Shown here: positions 712 through 13,855 of the stretch, piece after piece
Numbering within the stretch: the first letter of the stretch is position 1
Layout of the letters: every line of letters starts with the position of its first letter
Virus record (IMG/VR): IMGVR_UViG_3300009151_008314
Location: 1-20,559 of that record
Reading direction: 5' to 3' (one strand)
Length of the DNA: 20,559 nucleotides
Origin: a virus
Translations under genes and position numbers: made by a program
The notes under the pieces: model-generated
Database searches by the model: none
The model's input: only the letters and a program-made list of their open reading frames with translations
Told to the model about the DNA's origin: nothing

Positions 712-739
712 ACTATACTTTACAAAAAAACAAAATCAA
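712..739 (-). promoter_or_regulatory. Sigma70-like promoter for gp46
   Basis: Reading the minus strand, TTGATT (734-739) and TATAGT (712-717) are separated by 16 nt. The -10 ends 8 nt before the gp46 ATG, so the transcript would have a leader of only about two bases. The -35 overlaps the stop of the upstream methyltransferase gene. The -35 is a moderate match and the -10 a good one. Confidence 0.45.
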
Positions 740-1311
740 GTAGTCTTTTGAGCTATAATGTTAAACTCTTCTTCATGCATAGAGTATCCTAAATTTTGTA
801 ATTTTTGCTTGCAACTATTTAATTTTGGACCTCCTCTTGACATTGTTCCGTCGGAATGAATAAATTCAAACATTAAAAAATTAATACTAAATTCTTCAAA
901 GTTTATACTATTCACAATATCAACATCAAGACCTTCCACATCAATATATAAACGGTCGATAATTTTTAACTTCAAATCCCTAAACAATTGATTTATATTT
1001 TTTGCTGGAACCTTTTCTGTTCTAAAATTATGGCAGCTGTGATTTTGTAAATGATAGTCAACAAGGGAGGATTGAGCGGCAATATCGTTTTCCGTGGGGA
1101 TAAATAATTCTACATACGGTTCATTTATAGTTGTAATAGCATAATGAAAAAAATGTGTATTAGGAATATCTTTGTATTGATTTTTGCAAACAGAAATACA
1201 TTTTTTGTTTGCATCTAAAAGATATATATTATCAATAATGGTTTTATTTTCGGTAACAAACTTAAAAACGTGATCGTTTCCGTCGTTACATCCTATTTGT
1301 AGTATATTCAT
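736..1311 (-). CDS. FkbM-family methyltransferase
   Basis: A 191-residue SAM-dependent methyltransferase of the FkbM type, a family that typically O-methylates sugars in polysaccharides and glycoconjugates. Visible signatures are the SAM-binding motif I LQIGCNDGND (residues 4-13), an acidic LLDAN near residue 32 for ribose binding, and RLYIDVEGLDVDIVNSI (about 120-136), which matches the FkbM 'IDVEGxExxVL' segment. It is the last gene of the glycosylation cassette. Its ATG overlaps the TGA of the preceding gene as ATGA (1308-1311), which suggests translational coupling. There is no Shine-Dalgarno sequence. It is only distantly similar to the second FkbM gene at 2098-2697, so this is not a recent tandem copy. 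The acceptor sugar is unknown. Confidence 0.8.
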   Translation of the reverse strand: MNILQIGCNDGNDHVFKFVTENKTIIDNIYLLDANKKCISVCKNQYKDIPNTHFFHYAITTINEPYVELFIPTENDIAAQSSLVDYHLQNHSCHNFRTEKVPAKNINQLFRDLKLKIIDRLYIDVEGLDVDIVNSINFEEFSINFLMFEFIHSDGTMSRGGPKLNSCKQKLQNLGYSMHEEEFNIIAQKTT

Positions 1312-2111
1312 AAATTATATTCTTGTTCTCTTGTGTCTCCCAATTCTTTTTCATTTATATTAGTATGTGTTAAATTTAAATTTAAAAATTGTGCAGTACT
1401 TCCAACATTCGAAGTGGATCTAATAAGGTGACCACAGTTAGATAGTATATAGCAATCAGTTAATACATCTAGTCCTTTTTTATATCCAGAAATTTGAGGA
1501 TAATTGTTGTGTATGGAAACAGAACCTTGAGATCGAAATGCGTCAGTAAAGCTAACTGGTTTATTGTGATATTTAGAGATGTGGTTTGTTATTGTTCGTA
1601 AATCTTCCGATTCATCGGAAGCAATAAACACGTTATCAAAAGTTGGTAATAATTGATCTATATATTTTATGTAAACAGACACATCCAATGGAAATGCTGA
1701 AGAAGGCTCTCCAAATACATGGCCAATAAGTTTGTCCGTTTTTCTAATATGAATTCCTAATGTTTTATCATTTACTTTTAGATTAGCTAAAGCTTTTATT
1801 ATTATACTTTTAGTATCCTCATTCAAAATTATAAAATTAGTCAAAATATAATTCATTGTCTGTCTAAAATTATGTCCATCGGATAATTTTAGATCAGTAT
1901 AGTCTCCCACTATGTCATTGCTTTCTTTCCGGCTGTAAGCATTGCAATAAAAGTATTCCCAGGCGTTTGGACCGTATATTGCGTCGTTGTATGGAGTGGA
2001 ATTCCAGTCGATATACCACTCTTGGTTTTTATTTAAAGCATGAGATATATGCCGAGCCGCATCTAAAACGTTTCCAAAAAATCCTTTACTCGTTCCTTTA
2101 ATAATTTTCAC
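1308..2111 (-). CDS. GT23-like (alpha-1,6-fucosyltransferase/NodZ-type) glycosyltransferase
   Basis: A 267-residue protein with the features of the GT23/O-fucosyltransferase fold. LGIHIRKTDK (about residues 118-127) resembles the GDP-sugar-binding HxRRxDK of FUT8 and NodZ. VFIASDESEDL (about 161-171) follows, and then a C-terminal block with D..ILSNCGHLIRSTSNVGSTAQFLN, which corresponds to the 'D..LS.ad.lvcT.SS' region of that fold. It probably transfers a deoxyhexose from a GDP-sugar to a glycan. The start is GTG (2109-2111), 14 nt inside the preceding FkbM gene; I see no better ATG. The stop overlaps the next ATG. The fold call is reasonably good, but donor and acceptor are inferred from family knowledge only. 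Confidence 0.65.
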   Translation of the reverse strand: MKIIKGTSKGFFGNVLDAARHISHALNKNQEWYIDWNSTPYNDAIYGPNAWEYFYCNAYSRKESNDIVGDYTDLKLSDGHNFRQTMNYILTNFIILNEDTKSIIIKALANLKVNDKTLGIHIRKTDKLIGHVFGEPSSAFPLDVSVYIKYIDQLLPTFDNVFIASDESEDLRTITNHISKYHNKPVSFTDAFRSQGSVSIHNNYPQISGYKKGLDVLTDCYILSNCGHLIRSTSNVGSTAQFLNLNLTHTNINEKELGDTREQEYNL

Positions 2112-2697
2112 AATATATTTGATATGGCCTAACTCCCCTAGGTCCTTTTGTGAAGTCTCTGGTTATTGTCTCTCTCGTAGAAAGTTCTTTGAACTCTAAC
2201 CCCAAATTATTTAACAAATCAAATATTTCTTCCCAATCTTTGTCTAAATGGCATTCAATCGCAATAAAAGAACATCTTTTAAAAGTTTCTGGTCCACCTT
2301 TTATGGCTTTTATTTCGGCACCCTCAATATCAATCTTTAAACAATCTATAGGCAAATCTTTAAAATATGTATCCAATCTTACAGACGTTGTAGTTCCAAC
2401 GAGGTCACATTTTGTTTCTGTTGCATCGTAACCAATAATATTTCCCATATAAGTGTTTTCGTGTTGATACATATATTCAGTACCATCTATATCAGAAATA
2501 GCTTTATATTCATATACACAACCTTCTACCGGAGTTCCAATATGATTGATATCGAATGAGTATATTTTTCCGTTTGGTTTAGATAAATTTGAGAAAAAAT
2601 TTGTATACATTCCTTCACAAGCTCCGACATCACAATAATTCCAATTTGGTCTGTGTATTTCGGTTATAAGAGTTGTTAATAAATTATCCCAATCCAT
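2098..2697 (-). CDS. FkbM-family methyltransferase
   Basis: A 199-residue methyltransferase. NYCDVGACEGMYTNFFSNL (residues 20-38) is a clear SAM-binding motif I, KIYSFDIN (about 44-51) ends in the acidic ribose contact, and DCLKIDIEGAEIKAIKG (about 118-134) is the most typical FkbM signature in the window. The family usually methylates hydroxyl groups on sugars. It sits between an exostosin and the GT23-like gene in the cassette and overlaps the latter by 14 nt. The start is the ATG at 2697, only 6 nt after the stop of the upstream gene. It ends NY with no extra domain and has the family's usual short length. Confidence 0.85.
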   Translation of the reverse strand: MDWDNLLTTLITEIHRPNWNYCDVGACEGMYTNFFSNLSKPNGKIYSFDINHIGTPVEGCVYEYKAISDIDGTEYMYQHENTYMGNIIGYDATETKCDLVGTTTSVRLDTYFKDLPIDCLKIDIEGAEIKAIKGGPETFKRCSFIAIECHLDKDWEEIFDLLNNLGLEFKELSTRETITRDFTKGPRGVRPYQIYCENY

Positions 2698-2703
2698 AAT
2701 ATG

Positions 2704-3552
2704 TTATTTAGTAGTATTTTTTAGGTGTTCAAGGATAAGTCTAGGAAGGTTATCCATTGCAAAGTACTTTTCGTAAGCAATTTTACCGTTGTGTCTCATT
2801 ATACTCAATTGCTCGTCAGAAATAGATAATAACTGTTCTTTCAAAGAAGAAATATCATTAATATGAATCCCTATTGAGAATTCATTCCAATTTAATACAT
2901 TTGAATATGGAAGCCACTTCGTGTCGTCGTGTACATATATGGGAACACTTCCGAGTTGTAATGCCTCATAAAATCTAAATGATTGTGCTCCATAACCTCT
3001 TGGACAAAGAGTAAATTTTGATCTAGAAGTAACATTTAAGAATGTGTCTTGTTTAACGTTATTTAAACTCCAAGACCACTCTCCATTTTGTATATAAAAT
3101 AACGGATCATCTTTAAATGAAAGAGTCATTATTTTTCTCACGTTGTGTGTATCCGATCCTATGAATGAACAGAAAATATCTCTACGGCTAAAATTTAATT
3201 TGTGAATGTTAATAGGAGAGCACACTAAAGGTATAGGAATGCCTCCGGAGTTTCCTCCTGCAGAAAACACTATAGTTCCTTCAGGTAATATTTCTTTAAC
3301 TCCATCGTCGTGCTGAGCAACACAAAAATACTTTAAATGTTTAGGTAAAGATTTTATATAGGAATCGATATCCAATTGATACAAATAAGCAGTTGTCCAA
3401 AAAATAGGAAGTAAAGTATATCCAGTACTATCAAATATTTGTTTGTTTTTAGTGTAGTAATCAAAAAAATATTCCTCCATATACATTCCTTGATGATACG
3501 GAGGATAAGGAGCTCCTTGCCAAGGAACTCTTACATTTTTAAAATCTAACAT
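2704..3552 (-). CDS. Exostosin-like glycosyltransferase (GT47 type)
   Basis: A 282-residue protein. Near residues 180-250 it carries FTLCPRGYGAQSFRFYEALQLGSVPIYVHDD, then LNWNEFSIGIHINDI and a helix SLKEQLLSIS. These match the C-terminal nucleotide-sugar-binding half of exostosin proteins ('CPRG.g..s.Rf.eal..G.iPVi..d', 'W..f.i.i.e.di'). The family adds uronic acid, galactose or other sugars; the specificity cannot be read here. I use the ATG at 3552, which overlaps the TGA of the upstream gene as TGATG; a TTG one codon earlier is also in frame. A second exostosin gene (4199-5107) lies two genes upstream and shares the same signature, so the cassette holds a diverged pair. Confidence 0.8.
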   Translation of the reverse strand: MLDFKNVRVPWQGAPYPPYHQGMYMEEYFFDYYTKNKQIFDSTGYTLLPIFWTTAYLYQLDIDSYIKSLPKHLKYFCVAQHDDGVKEILPEGTIVFSAGGNSGGIPIPLVCSPINIHKLNFSRRDIFCSFIGSDTHNVRKIMTLSFKDDPLFYIQNGEWSWSLNNVKQDTFLNVTSRSKFTLCPRGYGAQSFRFYEALQLGSVPIYVHDDTKWLPYSNVLNWNEFSIGIHINDISSLKEQLLSISDEQLSIMRHNGKIAYEKYFAMDNLPRLILEHLKNTTK

Positions 3553-4202
3553 CAAATAAAATTTTGTTGTTCGTAATTTTTACGAGTGGCTTTTAATAAA
3601 TTTATTTTATTGTTTACTCCCATTACCCAATTAGCATGATGCATTACAATATTCCTTGGGACTAAAAAATACTCTTGATTATGCCAATGATCATAATACA
3701 TTCCATATGTAAAGAATTCTTTTGGTAGAAAGGCATGTTTAATTTCAGGAAATTCTCTGAGAGCGGCTTGTACTGAAGTTTGATCGTCTCTATGTAAGTG
3801 GTTAGTCTCTAATGCTAGTTGAAGCAATTTTTTAGTATTTTCATTTTTCTTACAATAGAAAAACCCTGTACACTGAGCTCCATAATAATCATTTTGAAAA
3901 ACAATGTCATGATTACACAAAGCTTTTTTTCCTAATTCACATATTGGTTTAAAGAACTGTACATCAACATCACTAAACACAAAATAATCACTTGTATCCG
4001 TAATGTCGTCAAATATTCCTAGGATCTTTTCAAGTTTTTGAGCTGTTGCAGCATTCCATCCTTTGCTTGCAAATTCCCCTGTTGGACACTGCTGATCTAG
4101 CTCGAAATAAACAGGATCAACAGTGGATTCTACATCCTTGATAGTATTAAACCAAGGAAGGAATATTTTATGTGTTTCTGAATATGCTGTGTAAATCCTC
4201 AT
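3552..4202 (-). CDS. Nucleotide-diphospho-sugar transferase-like protein (GT-A fold)
   Basis: A 216-residue protein whose middle contains DYFVFSDVDVQFFKPI (about residues 70-85). The SDVDVQFF segment is a DxD motif of the type that holds the metal and sugar nucleotide in GT-A enzymes. Later come CTGFFYCKKNENTKKLL, HRDDQTSVQAAL and the C-terminal RNIVMHHANWV. This order (DxD, 'gfm..k......l', 'DQ..' and a late His) resembles the Nucleotid_trans/GT77 group. No signal peptide or membrane segment is visible, so it should act in the cytoplasm. It overlaps the upstream exostosin gene by 4 nt (ATGA) and the downstream one by 1 nt. The GG/AG before its ATG (GGAG) is one of the few possible ribosome binding sites in the cassette, but it is also coding sequence of the upstream gene. 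Confidence 0.65.
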   Translation of the reverse strand: MRIYTAYSETHKIFLPWFNTIKDVESTVDPVYFELDQQCPTGEFASKGWNAATAQKLEKILGIFDDITDTSDYFVFSDVDVQFFKPICELGKKALCNHDIVFQNDYYGAQCTGFFYCKKNENTKKLLQLALETNHLHRDDQTSVQAALREFPEIKHAFLPKEFFTYGMYYDHWHNQEYFLVPRNIVMHHANWVMGVNNKINLLKATRKNYEQQNFI

Positions 4203-5107
4203 AAATCTCCAATAAATGTATTAAAGTATCCCTCAGATGAAAAATAAGTCATCCACAAATTTCTGTTATGTTTAGGAGATATTTTACATTGAGATATTAA
4301 TTCCGGAATATTATGTATGTCTTGTTTGTTTATACAAATAATATGTTCGTCCCAATTAATTTGTTTATGAAACGGTAGAATACATTCTGTGTTGATTAAT
4401 ATTGGTATTCTACCAAATGAAAGTGCTTCATAAAACCTATAAGAAAAATTACCATTGCCTCTCATACAAAGAGTAAAAGAACCAGACAATAAATTTTCGT
4501 AGAAAGAGATTCTAGCTATTTGCTTTGATTGAAGCTCTGGAGCCCAAAATCCTGAACGATATATAAAATTGGTATTATCGTATACCGATTCTACTTTTTG
4601 TATTATAGGAAGTCTTCCGTTTCCTACGTGACCACAAAATGTAATAATTTTGTTGGATGGCAATTCCGTAAGATTTTTATATGATGGAAAATGGTCGGGA
4701 ACAATAACTGGGAATACTCTTTCGTTTATGTGTTTAGTAAATTGATTTAACGAAGTTCTATATAGATATAAGTTATTTGGTAGAATAAACGATTCACCAC
4801 TATCGTCGTTATAAAACCCTATTACTTTTTTGTTGTTTAAATTGGCTATATTGCAATATTCTTGAATTCTGGAATCGTTTTTATCATATTTAAATGGAAT
4901 GATGGCTATGTCACATTCTTCTATGGTTTGTACATATATACTTCTAATATCAGTCAGTCTTAGTTTAGTAAATAGACCTTCATTCCAAGTATTAGCGTGA
5001 TTTAATACAATTTTATATTGTTCTTCGGATAATAGAGGAACTGCTGGAAATATTTCTGTAAAACATTTTAAATCCTGGTCGTTGATTGGAAACAAAAATA
5101 ATTTCAT
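4199..5107 (-). CDS. Exostosin-like glycosyltransferase (GT47 type), second copy
   Basis: A 302-residue protein. Its C-terminal half carries FTLCMRGNGNFSYRFYEALSFGRIPILINTE (about residues 212-242) followed by INWDEHIICINKQDI, the same arrangement as in the exostosin at 2704-3552. The N-terminal half (MKLFLFPINDQDLKCFTEIFPAVPLL) is not similar between the two by eye. Presumably one enzyme adds each of two sugars to the same glycan, but that is an inference. The upstream gene's stop and this ATG share TAAATG, and the downstream gene overlaps by 4 nt. No signal peptide is seen. The family call is good, the substrate unknown. Confidence 0.78.
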   Translation of the reverse strand: MKLFLFPINDQDLKCFTEIFPAVPLLSEEQYKIVLNHANTWNEGLFTKLRLTDIRSIYVQTIEECDIAIIPFKYDKNDSRIQEYCNIANLNNKKVIGFYNDDSGESFILPNNLYLYRTSLNQFTKHINERVFPVIVPDHFPSYKNLTELPSNKIITFCGHVGNGRLPIIQKVESVYDNTNFIYRSGFWAPELQSKQIARISFYENLLSGSFTLCMRGNGNFSYRFYEALSFGRIPILINTECILPFHKQINWDEHIICINKQDIHNIPELISQCKISPKHNRNLWMTYFSSEGYFNTFIGDL

Positions 5108-5913
5108 TTAAAAAACATTTGTTGTAACTCTAATTCGTTAGAGTGGGGTGTTAAGAAATTTGGCCCTGGACGTTTTACTAATACATTAAAAAAGTATCTA
5201 TGCCATTTTGCAAAGTCGTCAGCATAATTTTTGCTAAACATATCTTCGTTATAATAATACTCTTTAATTTTTGCTGAAGATTTATCTTCATGTATTATAT
5301 GAAATAACGTAGGAAATTTATTTTGCATCATTGTATCTGCATTGCTTAATAATATTGTTGCATAATGAGTGTCCCAGTAAACTACTGCGTAAACATATTC
5401 AGGAAATAGCAACCTGTTAGCTTTCCACCAATCAGTCTTAATAGTAAATGTATCAAATCCTGATACCTGATAGTGACTATTTTTTACTGGAGCCGTTTCG
5501 TCATTAAGTTTTAGTTCGAAATTGAGGTCTTTAATATCTCCCTCAATTGCTAATCTGGAGCCAATATAGGCTTCGTGAGTTTCATTAAAAATTTCATTAA
5601 AAAACTTATAAGACACAATAATATCAGAATTAATAAAACAAAAATAATCATAACCAAGAGCTGCTAACTCATCAAACATGTCTCTAACGATCGGAAGATG
5701 TTTGTCTCCTCCAAAAGCTTCTTTGCTTGTACGCTTTAAACATCTAAGAGTAGTAAATCCCTCCTTTTCTGTTAGGTCCTTTCCATCTTCAAATTGAAGA
5801 TTAAACAAATCTATTTGATTTCCAAACTTTGCCTTACATTTGAGTAAACTATCTGATCCAAGTGTTTGTCTAAAGCACTCTCCAAATAAATTTGTTCCTA
5901 CTGCTATTTTCAT
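5104..5913 (-). CDS. Putative GT-A-type glycosyltransferase
   Basis: About 269 residues from the ATG at 5913, which overlaps the TGA of the upstream methyltransferase as ATGA; an in-frame TTG two codons earlier is less likely. The N-terminus KIAVGTNLFGECF followed by FDELAALGYDYFCFINSDIIVSYKFFNEI (about residues 84-112) looks like a GT-A domain, with NSDI in the DxD position. YWDTHYATILL and a late HIIHEDKSSAKIKEYYYN fit the acceptor side. It does not match a named family that I recognise. The assignment rests on this motif order and on being in the middle of a glycosyltransferase operon. Confidence 0.5.
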   Translation of the reverse strand: MKIAVGTNLFGECFRQTLGSDSLLKCKAKFGNQIDLFNLQFEDGKDLTEKEGFTTLRCLKRTSKEAFGGDKHLPIVRDMFDELAALGYDYFCFINSDIIVSYKFFNEIFNETHEAYIGSRLAIEGDIKDLNFELKLNDETAPVKNSHYQVSGFDTFTIKTDWWKANRLLFPEYVYAVVYWDTHYATILLSNADTMMQNKFPTLFHIIHEDKSSAKIKEYYYNEDMFSKNYADDFAKWHRYFFNVLVKRPGPNFLTPHSNELELQQMFFK

Positions 5914-6497
5914 AACCAAATAACTCCTATTCCTTTTTCGTTATTAGCTTCGTGTAAAAACTCTTTGTATTTATAATTTTGTTTAAGTTCTTGCCACAGG
6001 TTATAAACCCCTCCTTCTTCGTTTTTACCGATATCATGGAATGCAACCATTCCCCCTTTTCTTACTAGAGGACTATATAGCTCAAAATCCATTTTAACTC
6101 CTTGGTACGTATGATCACCGTCAATAAACAAAAAGTCAATTCGTTCACCATTAAATATATCTTTTGTCTTTTGGAGAGTTTCGGGACGTTGAGAAGCATT
6201 AGGAATCAAATAAAGTTTGCACTTCTTTGCTTTGGCCCACTTTGGCCATTCTTCTTTGTAATTCTTCTCTTGTTTCTCCACGCGCCAATCATTAGGTCCT
6301 ACAAAGTTTCTTACAGGAAGATCTATGGCTACTACTGTAGATTGATCCTGTCCGTAATGAATAAAATGTTGAAGAGTCCATCCGTACAAAGAACCAATCT
6401 CTATTACTTTGGAAGGATTAAGTGTTTTATAATCTTTAAGAAGTTCTTCAAACTCTTGAAGGTTCTGACTGTTGAGTTCGTTATCTGCTATGATCAT
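5910..6497 (-). CDS. Class I SAM-dependent methyltransferase (CmcI/Methyltransf_24-like)
   Basis: A 195-residue methyltransferase. KVIEIGSLYGWTLQHFI (residues 30-46) is motif I, VVAIDLP (about 56-62) the acidic strand, and DFLFIDGDHTYQGVKMDFELYSPLVRKGGMVAFHDIG (about 120-156) is the characteristic central block of Methyltransf_24/cephalosporin-hydroxylase-like enzymes, including the IDGDHTY and AFHDIG pieces that often bind a metal. Such enzymes commonly methylate sugar hydroxyls in polysaccharide or rhamnosyl clusters. The gene overlaps the upstream GT2 gene by 17 nt and the downstream GT by 4 nt. It ends GIGVIWL, the usual terminal strand of the fold. Confidence 0.8.
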   Translation of the reverse strand: MIIADNELNSQNLQEFEELLKDYKTLNPSKVIEIGSLYGWTLQHFIHYGQDQSTVVAIDLPVRNFVGPNDWRVEKQEKNYKEEWPKWAKAKKCKLYLIPNASQRPETLQKTKDIFNGERIDFLFIDGDHTYQGVKMDFELYSPLVRKGGMVAFHDIGKNEEGGVYNLWQELKQNYKYKEFLHEANNEKGIGVIWL

Positions 6498-7326
6498 TTT
6501 TAAGTTGTTTAAGGTTTTCTATTACTTGTTCTTTACTAACAAAAGGAGGTTGGTTTGGATAGTGTCCATGCTTTTTTAAATAAATCTCTCTTCCAGCTGT
6601 AACTTTTTTCATCCATTCTGATTTATCTTTAGCAATTGCTGAGTTTTCTATAGCATTAGGAGCTTCAGTTAAAAGTTCATGACTATTGGCTAAATCCGCA
6701 AACCACCAAAAAGGTGTATGATACCCTGCTTTATATATATTATATGTGTGATCTACGTGTTCCCAACATTGATCATATTCTTCATCAATATAACCCACTT
6801 TATCTATAACTTCTCTAGTAAAAAAAGAAAACATTGCCACAGTATGTTCATACAAAGCTATTTTACAAGTTTTATAATCCACAATTAGTTTTGGGTTAGG
6901 TTCAGTACTCTGATCTAATAAATGTCTATTATGTAAATCGAAGTGTTGTATTACTTGCTTTCTATTGAAAGGAGATCCTGGACCATAGTTAAAATGCTGA
7001 ATACCTGACGCTTTACTTGCTTCTATATACTGTTTAAACACTGATTGATCCAGAATCAACATATCGTCTTCGATAACAAAGATATAATCACACCCTTCAT
7101 CATATAGATTTTTTAAAGCTATGTTTTTAGCTTTTCCTACTCCAATTCTACCAGATGTGTGATATATAAAATCTGCTTTAGAATAAGAGTATAAAGAATG
7201 CGTCTGTCCATCATCTACAATAATAAGCCTATCAATACCTGCTTCCGCTTTGTTAATAGAATCCAACAATCCGTTGAGGTAATCAACTCTTTCACAAGTA
7301 ATGATAGCTACACCAATTTTATTCAT
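6481..7326 (-). CDS. Family 2-like glycosyltransferase
   Basis: A 281-residue GT-A enzyme. It opens KIGVAIITCERVDYLNGLLDSI (residues 3-24), the nucleotide-binding start of GT2 proteins, followed by RLIIVDDGQTH (33-43) with the first Asp pair, GVGKAKNIALKNL (62-74) and DYIFVIEDDMLILD (80-93), where EDDM is the DxD metal site. A later YDQCWEHVDHTYNIYKAG (about 184-201) carries the acidic/His residues expected near the acceptor site. It is the first gene of the cassette, overlapping the end of gp47 by 8 nt, so the cassette is probably cotranscribed with the replication genes. Donor and acceptor are unknown. Confidence 0.8.
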   Translation of the reverse strand: MNKIGVAIITCERVDYLNGLLDSINKAEAGIDRLIIVDDGQTHSLYSYSKADFIYHTSGRIGVGKAKNIALKNLYDEGCDYIFVIEDDMLILDQSVFKQYIEASKASGIQHFNYGPGSPFNRKQVIQHFDLHNRHLLDQSTEPNPKLIVDYKTCKIALYEHTVAMFSFFTREVIDKVGYIDEEYDQCWEHVDHTYNIYKAGYHTPFWWFADLANSHELLTEAPNAIENSAIAKDKSEWMKKVTAGREIYLKKHGHYPNQPPFVSKEQVIENLKQLKNDHSR

Positions 7327-8911: not shown

Positions 8912-10343
8912 CTAATTTAGTTGTTATTAAAGGAATCTTTTCGGATTCGTATAAACGTTTTCTTTCTTCAAAATGCTTAAAACCGTATGTAAGACTAACG
9001 TCTGCTATATCAAAAATAGTAGCCATTTCTTTTGTATGATGCAAACGCAAACTTCTTCCTATGGACTGAATAATCTTAATTCTAGCTTTTCCTATGGCTG
9101 CAAATATAATGTTATGAAGGTTCTTAATTGAAATACCCGTCGAAAATATCTTTGATATAGCGATACAAACAACGTTATAATCGGTTTCCATAATTTGTTT
9201 AATCTTTTCTCTTTCTTCTACTTCTAAAGAACCTCTTACAAAGTATACTTGCTTAGTTGTATGTAACTTTAAATATTCTAGCAAGTGCTCCCCATGTGCA
9301 ATCCTGTCAACAAGTATAAGAGTGTTAGTCTCTAATCTGTTGTTAAGTTTTGATATGATGGAATTTCTATACTCGTTTGTTTGCAACCAGGTAGTTTCGT
9401 CCTCGTACTCAGCCGTTGGATTTGACATCGAAGCTCTTTCAAACTCTGGAACGTTTTTATATTCTATTTCTAAGGATACTACTCGTACATTTGATATGTA
9501 ATGTTCTTTTCTTAGATCAATGGACTTTAACTGGTATATTATACTTCCAAATATTCTATTAATTGTCCATATATCAAATTTTCCTTCAGGTAAAGAACCT
9601 GTTAATCCAAATATATGTTTACATTTAAGGCTCTTTACGAGTTTTGATATGTTGGCGGCGGTCGCAAGAGAATGAACTTCATCGACAATAACGCATTGAA
9701 ATTTATTAAGGACACTTATGTCTTGTTTTTCGGAAAGAAGGATTTGATTATTAGCAATGACAATTTTAGTTCCCTTAAACTCGTGATTCCCTGTCCATTT
9801 GGAAATTAAACTTTCTTCTAAACCATATTCAATAAGATCTTTGTATGTTTGAGTAACGAGTTGAATATTAGGTACAAGAATAAGGATATTATAATCTTTC
9901 TCAATAAGAGTCGTATTAGCTATAAGACTTACAACTAATGTTTTTCCAGCAGAAGTAGGAAGAACAATAACTCCTCGTCCTTTTTGAAGCGCCAATGTAG
10001 CAGATTCTAGCTGATAGTCTCTTGGAACTAGACCTTCTAAAGGAATAGGACTGTTAGAAATCTTCTCTAACTTAGAATTATCTAAAAACGATTGAGAAGC
10101 TCTAAGCTGAACAGAGGGGAACTTTAATTGTATTTGAGTGTACAGCTCCTCATAAAAAGGAATATCAAAATATCCTTTGTTTGTAATAGCGTATTTTCTT
10201 ACAGGAATATTTCGATTCATTCTACGTCGAATAAAAGCTTGGGCTTTATCCTCAACAGAAAATAACTCTCTAATCTCGTTGAGATTTTCCGAAACTATCT
10301 TCGGCTTTCGGGCAACCGTATCAAAATCAAACAATACTTCCAT
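8901..10343 (-). CDS. uvsW: UvsW-like superfamily 2 DNA helicase
   Basis: A 480-residue SF2 helicase close in length to T4 UvsW (about 500). Motif I is PTSAGKT (129-135), preceded by a Q-motif-like PRDYQLESATLAL (107-119). Motif II is DEVH (221-224), motif III LTGS (247-250), motif V STGISIKNLHNIIF (401-414) and motif VI QSIGRSLR (426-433). The N-terminal 100 residues (FIRRRMNRN, YFDIPFYEELY) resemble the small UvsW DNA-binding domain. UvsW unwinds R-loops and branched recombination intermediates and shuts down origin-dependent replication. It starts at ATG 10343, sharing one base with the uvsY stop (TAATG), and is followed by gp55. The position next to uvsY matches T4 synteny. Confidence 0.92.
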   Translation of the reverse strand: MEVLFDFDTVARKPKIVSENLNEIRELFSVEDKAQAFIRRRMNRNIPVRKYAITNKGYFDIPFYEELYTQIQLKFPSVQLRASQSFLDNSKLEKISNSPIPLEGLVPRDYQLESATLALQKGRGVIVLPTSAGKTLVVSLIANTTLIEKDYNILILVPNIQLVTQTYKDLIEYGLEESLISKWTGNHEFKGTKIVIANNQILLSEKQDISVLNKFQCVIVDEVHSLATAANISKLVKSLKCKHIFGLTGSLPEGKFDIWTINRIFGSIIYQLKSIDLRKEHYISNVRVVSLEIEYKNVPEFERASMSNPTAEYEDETTWLQTNEYRNSIISKLNNRLETNTLILVDRIAHGEHLLEYLKLHTTKQVYFVRGSLEVEEREKIKQIMETDYNVVCIAISKIFSTGISIKNLHNIIFAAIGKARIKIIQSIGRSLRLHHTKEMATIFDIADVSLTYGFKHFEERKRLYESEKIPLITTKLVES

Positions 10344-10756
10344 TAGGTAGTTTCTAAAGTAATAATTTTAGTGAGGTTATTCATTCCAAACTGTGTATCA
10401 CGGAAATTTGCTTCAACTTTAGAAAGGTATTCCACAAGGAGTTCGTTATTTTCTATCTCTTCATTAATTTTTTGAATTACTTCATGAGAAGAAACGGAGT
10501 CTGCGACTGTCTTTGCGGACAAGCCAACCGGGGATTCGTGTTGAATACGCGCCCGTAGCTTTTTCGCTGCGTCTTCTTTAAGCTTCTTGAACTTGTTAAT
10601 TTCTTGCTTGTGATACATTAGACGGCCAACCCAATAATGGCGTACAGAGGGTAAAGCCATCTGTGCGTCTTTCATATTGAGCTCATCAATTTTTAAAAAT
10701 TCTTCAATCTTTGCATGATATTCTTTAAAAAGATCAGCAGCAGTCTTATCACTCAT
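10343..10756 (-). CDS. uvsY: UvsY-like recombination mediator
   Basis: A protein of 137 residues from the ATG at 10756, the same length as T4 UvsY; an in-frame GTG 36 nt upstream is within the leader. It is rich in charged helices: HYWVGRLMYHKQEINKFKKLKEDAAKKLRARI (about 41-72) matches the basic 'W..k......k...k.ARL' segment of UvsY, and VIQKINEEIENNELLVEYLSKVEANFRDTQFGMNNLTKII the C-terminal helices. UvsY loads UvsX recombinase on gp32-covered single-stranded DNA. The gene is immediately followed by uvsW. A TATAAT promoter lies upstream at 10798-10825. Sequence similarity to T4 is low by eye, so the call rests on length, helix pattern and neighbourhood. Confidence 0.72.
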   Translation of the reverse strand: MSDKTAADLFKEYHAKIEEFLKIDELNMKDAQMALPSVRHYWVGRLMYHKQEINKFKKLKEDAAKKLRARIQHESPVGLSAKTVADSVSSHEVIQKINEEIENNELLVEYLSKVEANFRDTQFGMNNLTKIITLETT

Positions 10757-10825: not shown

Positions 10826-10869
10826 GATCTTAGAGATTAATTGTAATCCGTCGATGTAGATCTTGGGAG

Positions 10870-10898
10870 GGAGGTTCCCCCCCACAGGGAAAACCTCC
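10870..10898 (-). other. GC-rich hairpin in the uvsY upstream region
   Basis: In minus-strand RNA the arms GGAGGUUUUCCC and GGGGGGGAACCUCC-side bases pair as a continuous 12-bp stem with two G-U pairs and a UGUGG loop. On the plus strand the same two pairs become A-C mismatches, so the fold favours a minus-strand transcript. No T-run follows, so it is not a standard terminator. It contains a run of seven C/G. Confidence 0.5.
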
Positions 10899-11007
10899 AA
10901 CTTGATTAATTGACTCCGTATGAAATGAGTCTCGGTCGGGTTAACAAACTTCTGGTATCTTCTACCAAGCTCCCTCGGTTGTCCTGTAAGAGCATTTTGT
11001 TTGAGCG

Positions 11008-11137
11008 GTCCTAGCAACTAGGCTAGACAACGGTCACGCTTAAAGCGTTCATCGAGAATGTGTTTTTAATTTATTAATCACTGACCCTTGTTTGTCTATC
11101 TCGCGACCGAGACCCGCTATAAAGCATTGGCTAGGAC
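11008..11137. ncRNA. Candidate branched structured RNA (three-way junction)
   Basis: A closing stem of 8 bp (11008-11015 with 11130-11137) encloses a long arm and a short hairpin. In the long arm, 11027-11036 pairs with 11082-11091 at nine of ten positions, extended outward by G-U and A-U pairs on the plus strand. The hairpin is 11099-11103/11108-11112 with loop CGAC. A nested CGCT/AGCG hairpin sits in the arm's terminal loop. The fold is hand-drawn and no RNA family was recognised. The strand is not decided; G-U pairs in the long arm favour the plus strand. Confidence 0.35.
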
Positions 11138-11190
11138 TAACAGTGATAAAACTATTAAACATCTATTACTAGAATTGTCAACAAATTTTG

Positions 11191-11197
11191 TTAAATA
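11191..11197 (+). promoter_or_regulatory. Late-type promoter element TTAAATA
   Basis: TTAAATA lies exactly 5 nt before the ATG at 11203 and no -35 is visible. The same element at the same distance precedes three other genes. It resembles the T4 late promoter TATAAATA, and at T4 spacing the transcript would begin at or next to the ATG. Confidence 0.5.
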
Positions 11198-11202
11198 ACA
11201 CT

Positions 11203-11367
11203 ATGAAAATCGATAAAGATTTGAAGGCTCTCTTTGAAGCTTACGAAAAAGTTCAGGAGATGGCTGTAAGGAGTACAGGAAAAACTTCAGCTATTTTAAA
11301 TAAAGCTCCTAATAAATATGGAGTTGGTCTCGATTGGAACGATTTACCGCCCGAAGCTTTCCGGTGA
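11203..11367 (+). CDS. N-terminal segment of a probable virion protein, ending at a putative frameshift
   Basis: A 54-codon frame translated by hand: it begins MKIDKDLKALFEAYEKVQEM and ends NDLPPEAFR at a TGA (11365-11367). It is too short to stand alone and reads like the front of the protein encoded in the next frame (11318-12121), which overlaps it by 50 nt and has an unnatural-looking start. A +1 shift at CGG-TGA would give a continuous protein of about 305 residues. The first 12 residues (LFE then A) resemble a capsid-targeting peptide cut by the phage prohead protease. The ATG is directly preceded by a late-type TTAAATA element. Whether the break is a programmed frameshift, a mutation or a sequence error cannot be decided from one sequence. 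Confidence 0.6.
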   Translation: MKIDKDLKALFEAYEKVQEMAVRSTGKTSAILNKAPNKYGVGLDWNDLPPEAFR

Positions 11368-12121
11368 AGTTACCTTAAAAGACGATCCCGAAAAAGAACG
11401 TAAACTTAACATTACTCCTAATAGAGATGCTGATTATAAACTATTTACAAATAAAGGAAGATTGGAAAAATATGGGGAACATCTTATAAAAAATACTTTT
11501 AAAAAGATTCCTTTTGATTTTAATATCATTTTTCAAGATTACGAAATTCATACAGAAGAAGAAGAAAAAAATCTTCCTGTAGATAATGAACAAGATTCAA
11601 TTACTATTTTTATGTCTAATGATGCTACTACATCCAAAGAACCAACAAAAAAAGAAACGGGAGGTTATCAACATACTGCTTTAACTCCATGGATGATAGG
11701 ACATCGTATTGCTCACAATATGACTTCCGAAACTGATTTATTTAGAAATAAAATTACAAGACAGTCAATGGGATCAATTCAAAAACAATTTGATAATGAT
11801 ACAAAAAATATTATTAATACATATTTATACAGTGTTAATAAAAATTGGAAGAACGAAAATATAAGCACAACTATTCGCAATCCAATATTTAGCAAAGTAT
11901 CCAATTTTAAGTCGGCTCGAGATGGTGTAGTAAATGGCCTTCCTGAATATATTCACGAATTGATAGCTTCCTATCTTTTTCAGGGAAAAATTGTCTTCAA
12001 CCCTCTTCCTTCTGTTGAAGTAGCTAATAAGGCAGCATCAGATTTTCAAAATTGTGTTGTATCTATGCTCGAAAAGCTAAAAGGTTGCTACGGTGTTTAT
12101 ACTCCACATTTACATGGCTAA
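11318..12121 (+). CDS. Probable virion-associated protein of unknown function, main part (frameshifted)
   Basis: A 267-codon frame. Its first 15 residues (MELVSIGTIYRPKLS) are probably an out-of-frame reading of the upstream segment; natural-looking sequence begins around SGEVTLKDDPEKERK. The centre has TPWMIGHRIAHNM (about 124-136), where HRIAH recalls a degenerate HExxH, and later YIHELIASYLFQGKIVFNPLP (about 211-231). I believe similar 'TPWxxxHRxxH' proteins occur in T4-like marine phages, but this is from memory and unchecked, and no catalytic function should be assumed without the Glu. It lies first in the plus-strand cluster and is followed 32 nt later by a small Lys-rich gene that also has a late-type promoter. 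Confidence 0.6.
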   Translation: MELVSIGTIYRPKLSGEVTLKDDPEKERKLNITPNRDADYKLFTNKGRLEKYGEHLIKNTFKKIPFDFNIIFQDYEIHTEEEEKNLPVDNEQDSITIFMSNDATTSKEPTKKETGGYQHTALTPWMIGHRIAHNMTSETDLFRNKITRQSMGSIQKQFDNDTKNIINTYLYSVNKNWKNENISTTIRNPIFSKVSNFKSARDGVVNGLPEYIHELIASYLFQGKIVFNPLPSVEVANKAASDFQNCVVSMLEKLKGCYGVYTPHLHG

Positions 12122-12153: not shown

Positions 12154-12426
12154 ATGGAATTTCGTACAATAGTTGAACAGGTTCTTTTCGAAGACTCTGT
12201 AGAAGGTGGAGCCGGTTCCGTATTTGGAGCAGGTGTAGCAAGCACAGCCACTCCGTTTAGTGGCGACAATTACGCAAAGGGGGACGCTCGCAATCTCTTT
12301 GGAGGACCTCCTCCAACCGTTTTAACAAGAAATGGTGCTATTAATAGCAAAACAAAAAAGAAGAAAGTTTCATACAAAAAAGCTGCTAAGAAGAAGAAGC
12401 ATAAGAAAAAATCCAAGAAGAGGTAA
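12154..12426 (+). CDS. Small Lys-rich probable internal head protein
   Basis: A 90-residue protein starting at ATG 12154; the frame is open further upstream, but that part lies over the previous gene and ATG 12154 sits right behind a late-type promoter. It has three parts. The first is an N-terminal amphipathic peptide MEFRTIVEQVLFED with a likely prohead-protease site after LFE (residue 13). The second is a Gly/Ala/Ser/Pro-rich middle (GGAGSVFGAGV, FGGPPP). The third is a tail from residue 66 that is mostly lysine (KTKKKKVSYKKAAKKKKHKKKSKKR). Such a basic tail suggests binding to packaged DNA. The role as an internal or core head protein is inferred from this design; no named family was recognised. 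Confidence 0.65.
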   Translation: MEFRTIVEQVLFEDSVEGGAGSVFGAGVASTATPFSGDNYAKGDARNLFGGPPPTVLTRNGAINSKTKKKKVSYKKAAKKKKHKKKSKKR

Positions 12427-12429
12427 TTT

Positions 12430-12876
12430 ATGGATTTAGGCCACTGGCAACTTTTGGAAGGTCTTGATTATAAAGAGGATGCATTTGGTTTTGTGTATCG
12501 AATTGATCGAGTAAATCCTGGTCCGAAAGATAAAAAACACTATTGGGGATGTAAGCAAATGGTTCAAAAGAAAAAGCTAGCTCCATTAAAAGGAAAGAAG
12601 AGATTCCGCAGATCAATAAAAGAAAGCGATTGGAAGACGTATACCGGCTCTTCAAACGAGCTTAACGCTGACATTGCTATATATGGTAAGAATCAATTTA
12701 AGTTTGTAATTTTGCAATTTTGTAGTTGCAAATGGCAATTAAAATACGAAGAGCTTAAAACTCAAATGCATAATAATGTTTTGTTGAGAGACGATACCTA
12801 CAACGGAATTATAAACGTGAGATTAAACAAAGTTCCCAAAGACCTTAAAACAATATATGAATTCAACATCTGTTAA
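12430..12876 (+). CDS. SegE-like GIY-YIG-type putative endonuclease
   Basis: A 148-residue protein resembling the SegE-like domain found in many T4-like phages. GFVYRI (20-25) and HYWGCKQ (37-43) stand where GIY and YIG would be, both degenerate. SDWKTYTGSSNELNADIAIYGKNQFKFVIL (66-95) is the most typical part, and the later EELKTQMHNNVLLRDDTYNGIINVRL (107-132) contains the Glu and Asn expected on the active face. SegE-type enzymes are free-standing homing endonucleases. It starts 4 nt after the Lys-rich gene with a plausible GAGG ribosome site 6 nt upstream, one of the few in this window. It overlaps the next GIY-YIG gene by 20 nt. Activity is uncertain because the motifs are altered. Confidence 0.72.
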   Translation: MDLGHWQLLEGLDYKEDAFGFVYRIDRVNPGPKDKKHYWGCKQMVQKKKLAPLKGKKRFRRSIKESDWKTYTGSSNELNADIAIYGKNQFKFVILQFCSCKWQLKYEELKTQMHNNVLLRDDTYNGIINVRLNKVPKDLKTIYEFNIC

Positions 12877-13855
12877 TTTTGTATCAGGAATATACAAAAT
12901 AACTTCTCCTTCTAAAAGAGAGTATATCGGCCAAGCAAAACATATACGAAAACGGTGGGAACAATACAAGTACTACGAAAGGGATTACGAATGTGTTAGA
13001 ATTAAAAACAAAACAAGCTTAATATATAAATCTTTTATTAAATATGGTTTGGAATCACACAAGTTTGAGGTAATAGAGTATTGCGACGTTGACAAATTAA
13101 ACGATAGAGAGATATATTATATAGAAAAATATAAAACCTTTTTTAAAAAATACCCAAGTAAAAGGGGTCTAAATTTACACGAAGGTGGCAATGTTCCCCC
13201 TTGCAGTTTAGGCAGAATTGTATCTGTTGAAACTAAAACCAAAATAAGCATAAAAAATAAATTAAATCATGCAGCGGGTAAATACAAATATCCCAATAAC
13301 AAACCAATAATTAAAAAAAATCTAAACGGAGAAGTGATATTAAAGTATAATACTTTACAGGATTTGGTAAAACACGAAGATTTTAGTCTAAGCAAGTTTT
13401 ATCGTAATTTTATAGAATTTAACAAATGTTTTATAGGAAATTTTGTTTTTTCGTTTGAAAATCCGACACACTTTAAGTACAAAATACAACAACCAAAAGT
13501 TCAGCGAATCAAAAAGGAAAAACAAAAAAAATCAGCAGAGGAATTGTTTAAAATATCACAAAAAAGAAAGGAATATGCAAAATCTTTAGGTCTTAGCAAT
13601 AAAGGAAGGATAATCATAAATAGAAAAAAACCCAAAAAAACGGAAAAAATGCTTTTTCATCTCAGTCGAGTCCACCAATTAAACAAAAAACCAATAGACC
13701 AACTCGATATGAATGGAAATCTTATTGCAACTTTTCCTTCAATTAAAGATGCAGCAGCAGCTGTTAATGGGGATAGACAACCAATATATTCCGCTTGTAC
13801 CAACAAAATAAAACGTTGTTACGGATTTATGTGGAGGTATAATTGTATCAAATGA
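12857..13855 (+). CDS. GIY-YIG homing endonuclease with NUMOD DNA-binding repeats
   Basis: A 332-residue endonuclease. GIY is at 11-13 and YIG at 23-25, with the catalytic Arg candidate in HIRKRWEQY (R33) and the Glu in DREIYYIEKYKT (about residue 80). It is followed by LGRIVSVETKTKISIKNK (about 118-135), a NUMOD3-like DNA-binding helix, an intermediate NUMOD1-like unit (KKNLNGEVILKYNTLQDL), a very Lys-rich linker, and a C-terminal NUMOD1/IENR1 unit (DQLDMNGNLIATFPSIKDAAAAVNG...CYGFMWRY, about 281-329). This architecture is that of I-TevI-like and free-standing phage homing enzymes, which spread by cutting alleles that lack them. It is intact, more AT-rich than its neighbours, and overlaps genes on both sides (20 and 4 nt). 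Confidence 0.87.
   Translation: MNSTSVNFVSGIYKITSPSKREYIGQAKHIRKRWEQYKYYERDYECVRIKNKTSLIYKSFIKYGLESHKFEVIEYCDVDKLNDREIYYIEKYKTFFKKYPSKRGLNLHEGGNVPPCSLGRIVSVETKTKISIKNKLNHAAGKYKYPNNKPIIKKNLNGEVILKYNTLQDLVKHEDFSLSKFYRNFIEFNKCFIGNFVFSFENPTHFKYKIQQPKVQRIKKEKQKKSAEELFKISQKRKEYAKSLGLSNKGRIIINRKKPKKTEKMLFHLSRVHQLNKKPIDQLDMNGNLIATFPSIKDAAAAVNGDRQPIYSACTNKIKRCYGFMWRYNCIK

Follow-up and report, generated by a model that had tools for sequence, protein, structure and literature searches.

A conserved pseudoknotted RNA beside uvsY in a clade of uncultured T4-like phages

The intergenic region upstream of a uvsY-like gene in an uncultured T4-like phage carries a structured RNA, formed on one strand, and there is strong support for the conclusion that matched mutations have preserved its fold across approximately 30 related viruses. 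The window that we analysed consists of 20,559 nt of viral DNA (IMG/VR record IMGVR_UViG_3300009151_008314, positions 1-20,559). The organisation of the locus suggests that the RNA is probably the product of a free-standing phage non-coding RNA gene of about 300 nt, located on the minus strand with a promoter of its own, and that it most likely acts in trans and not as a leader of uvsY. More tentatively, with slightly less than even confidence, it may represent a new family of free-standing pseudoknotted RNAs with a novel function, serving as a trans-acting machine or an RNA-protein scaffold at the uvsY locus of a single uncultured T4-like clade. Few viruses have been studied as thoroughly as the T4-like phages, and still this clade holds a conserved RNA that is in no Rfam model and whose elaborateness matches that of many RNA families already catalogued. 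The fold, the strand, the promoter and a sister clade without the RNA are defined well enough for direct testing, and a covariance model is now at hand for finding further members.

The region had been singled out in a preliminary description for its inverted repeats at 10860-11150, which exist at those places. They include TCTCGGTCG/CGACCGAGA, given as GTCTCGGTCG (10929-10938 with 11104-11113), GTCCTAGC at 11008-11015 with GCTAGGAC at 11130-11137, and TAGACAA at 11024-11030 with TTGTCTA at 11092-11098. Its G+C content, also described as raised, is above that of its surroundings and of most of the contig. Both the plus strand (z = -2.6) and the minus strand (z = -3.2) folded better than 200/200 dinucleotide shuffles. 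As single-sequence folding cannot choose between alternatives, homologues were sought. Starting from the adjacent uvsY-like protein, we reached four IMG/VR contigs whose similarity extends from uvsY across the whole intergenic region to approximately position 11205, and the set was enlarged using a profile of this protein together with patterns taken from invariant parts of the RNA. Homologous regions next to uvsY, which the preliminary description had proposed looking for, were thus found on uncultured T4-like phage contigs: approximately 30 distinct RNA homologues, each flanked by the same pair of divergent genes. Alignment A3 was made from the 27 sequences left once duplicates had been discarded, and two homologues found later, L135 and L164, were kept out of it as held-out sequences. 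The homologues share no reading frame and their indels are not in multiples of three, in keeping with the region having been described as non-coding; a coding reading was rejected for lack of a conserved frame. The proposed extent of 10860-11150 does coincide with a conserved block, but the block is longer, with promoter and RNA together spanning approximately 10845-11181. The structure written down from alignment A3 comprises 50 pairs in 11 helices, and the principal features of the locus are as follows.

12154-12426, plus strand: divergent short gene (90 aa, lysine-rich C terminus), upstream of the RNA in 27/27 loci
11154-11181, minus strand: sigma-70-type promoter-like element (TTGACA at 11176-11181, 16-nt spacer, TTTAAT at 11154-11159)
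10845-11148, minus strand: structured non-coding RNA of approximately 290-304 nt, defined by alignment A3, covariation, the held-out test and strand asymmetry
11077-11147, minus strand: 5' domain, stem P1 enclosing P2, P3 and hairpin P4
11141-11147 with 11077-11083, minus strand: P1, compensatory changes
11129-11131 with 11112-11114, minus strand: P2, compensatory changes
11123-11125 with 11116-11118, minus strand: P3, third pair poorly supported
11108-11111 with 11100-11103, minus strand: hairpin P4, compensatory changes in all four pairs
11059-11076, minus strand: A-rich linker, AUUAAUAAAUUAAAAACA-like, predicted unpaired, with strong conservation in the majority of the 27 sequences
10931-11056, minus strand: core domain, 97.8-100% of cells paired
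11053-11056 with 10931-10934, minus strand: closing stem Pc of the core domain
11045-11048 with 11036-11039, minus strand: P5 of the core, compensatory changes
11022-11026 with 11011-11015, minus strand: P6 of the core, compensatory changes
10978-11031, minus strand: pseudoknot, GUUGU(C) at 11026-11031 with (G)ACAAC at 10978-10983
10999-11003 with 10945-10949, minus strand: P7, forming a three-way junction with P8 and P9, compensatory changes
10988-10993 with 10969-10974, minus strand: P8 of the junction, compensatory changes
10952-10968, minus strand: hairpin P9 of the junction, weaker support
10870-10898, minus strand: 3' G+C-rich hairpin P11, mean folding z of -4.1 over 27 sequences
10858-10874, minus strand: conserved CCUCCCUCCC tail, overlapping P11 and extending past it (combined element 10858-10898)
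10343-10756, minus strand: uvsY-like gene (137 aa), downstream of the RNA and beside genes for a UvsW-like helicase and a late sigma factor

Across the 27 sequences, 97.1% of cells in the 50-pair model form standard pairs, compared with 33-41% when partners are slid by one to three columns. Changes on both sides of a pair occur at 18/50 pairs, and none of 500 shuffles matched the observed paired fraction, double-change count or covariation score. Under a tree-based null that replays substitutions, 8/50 pairs reach E < 0.05 where 0.09 would be expected, and 41 inferred branch changes are double and compensatory; the significance test and the tree are our own approximation of R-scape, applied to a fairly shallow alignment. 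The covariation that the preliminary description had suggested checking for is therefore present, and only one pair reaches E < 0.05 when the search is not restricted to the proposed pairs. The held-out sequences agree with the model, with 45/45 pairs holding in L164 and 43/45 in L135 (88/90 together, including four compensatory pair types unseen before; P10 and the third pair of P3, both poorly supported, were left out of this count). Covariance model R1 recovers both L135 (E = 1.3e-30) and L164 (E = 4.6e-37). The most significant pair of the 5' domain has E = 6e-6. In the core, the pseudoknot joins the P8 loop (ACAAC) to the GUUGU preceding P6 and is paired in 27/27 sequences, with a compensatory change from U-A to C-G in L023; at the pair flanking it, U-A replaces C-G in L023, L054 and L057. 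Hairpin P9 folds on average hardly better than shuffles and is a likely element, kept only because different sequences form it.

This fold differs from the one drawn earlier from the single sequence, which correctly pointed to a structured RNA but whose long-range helices are wrong; conservation is seen instead for another three-way junction and for a pseudoknot. The outer stem of the closed three-way junction that had been placed at 11008-11137 is paired in only 62% of cells across the 27 homologues, and the mutually exclusive pairing interpreted as a switch in 78%, so that neither is conserved; every pair of the outer stem or the switching helix is intact in only 1/27 sequences. The TAGACAA/TTGTCTA arm is paired in 91% of cells and is incompatible with the conserved pseudoknot. 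Taken as a set, these three helices show covariation no better than that of shuffles.

Paired cells contain 136 G-U combinations versus 17 A-C combinations, which identifies the minus strand as the one that folds. A TTGAC[A/T] hexamer lies upstream on this strand at a fixed distance from the first stem in 25/28 homologues and is accompanied, after a 16-nt spacer, by a second, [T/G]AnATT-like hexamer with T at its sixth position in 25/25, located 5-6 nt before the first aligned base of the RNA. The fixed distance points to a transcription start at P1, with the predicted 5' end near 11147-11148. In the window the second hexamer (TTTAAT) fits the consensus poorly and a generic promoter scan did not list the element, which was accepted because of its constant position across homologues. 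The 3' end would lie somewhere past the hairpin at 10870-10898. A G-run near the 3' end is conserved, and the hairpin holds two copies of CCUCC, either of which could pair with GGAGG; in L135 the 5' arm of the hairpin is replaced and the hairpin is kept. No terminator was found after it, there being no U-run, so read-through into uvsY is possible. An anti-Shine-Dalgarno role for the CCUCC tail was considered and rejected, as Shine-Dalgarno motifs play hardly any part at the gene starts of the phage itself. Such motifs are rare before the genes of L106-L116 and the window (12%, versus 6% in shuffled sequence), and these A-rich gene starts may hint at the host group.

The UvsW helicase, late sigma factor and SbcD-type nuclease mark the window phage as T4-like, although its UvsW is only approximately 32-35% identical to those of the isolated phages that score best, which are cyanophages. 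A single copy of the RNA is present in each long record, the longest being 217 kb. Searches of isolated phages returned only 22-nt chance matches, and none of 47 motif matches in bacterial genomes extended beyond chance. The gene order of the RNA-bearing clade recurs in a sister clade (UvsW 52-53% identical). Neither profile nor covariance model gave a match to the RNA there, whole records included, an empty answer from the model not being proof. The corresponding interval is only approximately 190 nt in many sister-clade records, and the short intervals seem to hold small coding frames. The RNA may thus either have been gained by the clade that bears it or lost by the sister clade.

We name the downstream neighbour uvsY from its position and from a sub-threshold match of its sister-clade homologue to the PF11056 UvsY profile (E = 0.04); a PDB search gave no match. 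The RNA lies 58-96 nt from uvsY in 21/27 loci, and in the remaining 6/27 foreign genes, which differ between loci, are inserted between the two. One of these, in L039 (7088-8455, plus strand), encodes a TnpB-like protein with a Cas12f1-like TNB domain (E = 1.1e-11) on the strand opposite to uvsY. On the promoter side, the divergent gene is 54-56 nt from the RNA in most loci and 1006 nt away in the window, displaced by an inserted segment; several more loci have insertions on this side. The window's segment (11200-12121) is missing from the first four relatives. It contains an ORF at 11188-11367 overlapping another at 11318-12121 in a different frame, which could be a frameshifted or unknown gene; neither ORF matches PHROGs and 11318-12121 has no Pfam match. 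Further along (12430-13855, plus strand) lie genes for a SegE-like GIY-YIG protein and then a GIY-YIG/NUMOD1 homing-endonuclease-like protein, and at 736-7326 (minus strand) glycosyltransferase- and methyltransferase-looking genes, judged from translations only, sit between two recombination nuclease genes. Among the 27 loci no insertion falls inside the unit formed by promoter and RNA. That genes have been inserted on both sides of this unit and never within it points to a free-standing, trans-acting RNA and not to a leader of uvsY.

We propose that a host sigma-70-type RNA polymerase would transcribe the RNA from its own promoter, starting at the first stem. The 5' domain and the pseudoknotted core with its three-way junction would fold, joined by the A-rich linker, and the transcript would end with the stable G+C-rich hairpin. 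During infection the RNA may then act in trans by binding a protein or a ribonucleoprotein.

The main rival to this proposal is that the RNA is a cis-acting leader, the 5' UTR of the uvsY-uvsW-late-sigma operon, controlling read-through or translation with its 3' hairpin as an attenuator. We consider this unlikely, although, besides the possible read-through, one more observation counts against a free-standing gene: the unit always occupies the same place and orientation before the operon, and at its usual distance from uvsY it is positioned as a leader would be. The two CCUCC copies would also offer alternative partners for GGAGG, and in the sister clade a promoter seems, by eye, to lie immediately before uvsY at this place. 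The hairpin nevertheless lacks the U-run of a terminator, and the pairing that might have switched is not conserved. Other genes intervene before uvsY in six loci, one of them on the opposite strand, and the window has promoter-like sites directly ahead of uvsY itself, though no more than expected by chance. A lesser rival, which we regard as improbable, is that the RNA acts at a replication origin, priming or opening it via an R-loop. At the T4 origin ori(uvsY), or oriF, a promoter transcript forms an R-loop at the equivalent site next to uvsY (PMC3016281), and here AT-rich DNA follows the RNA and the G-run near its 3' end is conserved. In T4, however, the R-loop depends on a middle promoter and on an AT-rich unwinding element, and no particular sequence is required (PMC3016281). 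In our locus the promoter-like element is conserved and AT-rich DNA comes only after 300 nt of G+C-richer RNA, which insertions separate from what follows. The sister clade does without the RNA, and the GC skew of the 217-kb relative, an uninformative measure here, shows no turn at it. Overall, the data favour a trans-acting RNA.

Two further explanations seem more remote. The RNA could belong to a known family from which it has diverged too far for covariance models to recognise it, given that phages have other structured RNAs, GOLLD and ROOL among them; we judge this very improbable because Rfam 15 gave no match in the window or in the homologues checked. At gathering scores this covered the window and the homologues in L054, L034 and L045, and at permissive thresholds the window, L135 and L020 gave nothing or chance matches. 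Neither ARAGORN nor Rfam found a tmRNA or tRNA in the window. The suggestion of a candidate new structured RNA that belongs to no known family is thus strongly supported by homologues beside uvsY, covariation and the empty Rfam search. A literature search for catalogues of phage structured RNAs returned no title or abstract about this locus; a large collection of candidate structured RNAs from viruses, phages included, reportedly exists and may hold the RNA as an unnamed cluster. Finally, the region might act as DNA and not as RNA, through protein-binding palindromes or as a packaging or recombination site, and its single copy, dense inverted repeats and fixed location would suit such an element. 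The excess of G-U over A-C is expected of an RNA made from one strand and not of DNA, and together with the promoter at a fixed distance it makes this reading exceedingly improbable.

The free-standing RNA that we propose resembles several known systems in part. The packaging RNA (pRNA) of phi29 is likewise small and phage-encoded, with a three-way junction and pairing through its loops; here the loop pairing is modelled within one molecule and there is no match to a sequence family. T4-like phages are not known to use a packaging RNA. Like riboswitch and attenuator leaders, the RNA has a conserved fold with a pseudoknot and a junction before an operon, but unlike structured leaders it is not tied to one downstream gene, and no conserved alternative pairing was found. 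It shares with the T4 ori(uvsY) transcript a place next to uvsY in a T4-like phage and a promoter, functional in T4 (PMC3016281) and predicted here, whereas in our clade 300 nt of sequence and a fold are conserved under a TTGACA-type promoter. The nearest known kind is the ornate RNAs of phages such as ROOL and GOLLD, which are phage-encoded, strongly conserved and elaborate non-coding RNAs of unknown function, with multiple pseudoknots in ROOL (PMC12286853). Many GOLLD RNAs exceed 800 nt, and both GOLLD and ROOL are often near tRNA islands (PMC12286853). The 217-kb relative (G001) encodes a tmRNA (L107:4603-5036) whose predicted tag is unusually long, at 33 residues, followed by approximately ten tRNA genes. 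The uvsY-side RNA differs from GOLLD and ROOL in sequence, with no Rfam match to either, in size, at approximately 300 nt, and in place, being distant from the tRNA cluster, which in the 217-kb relative is at approximately 21-27 kb, with the RNA at 42.6 kb.
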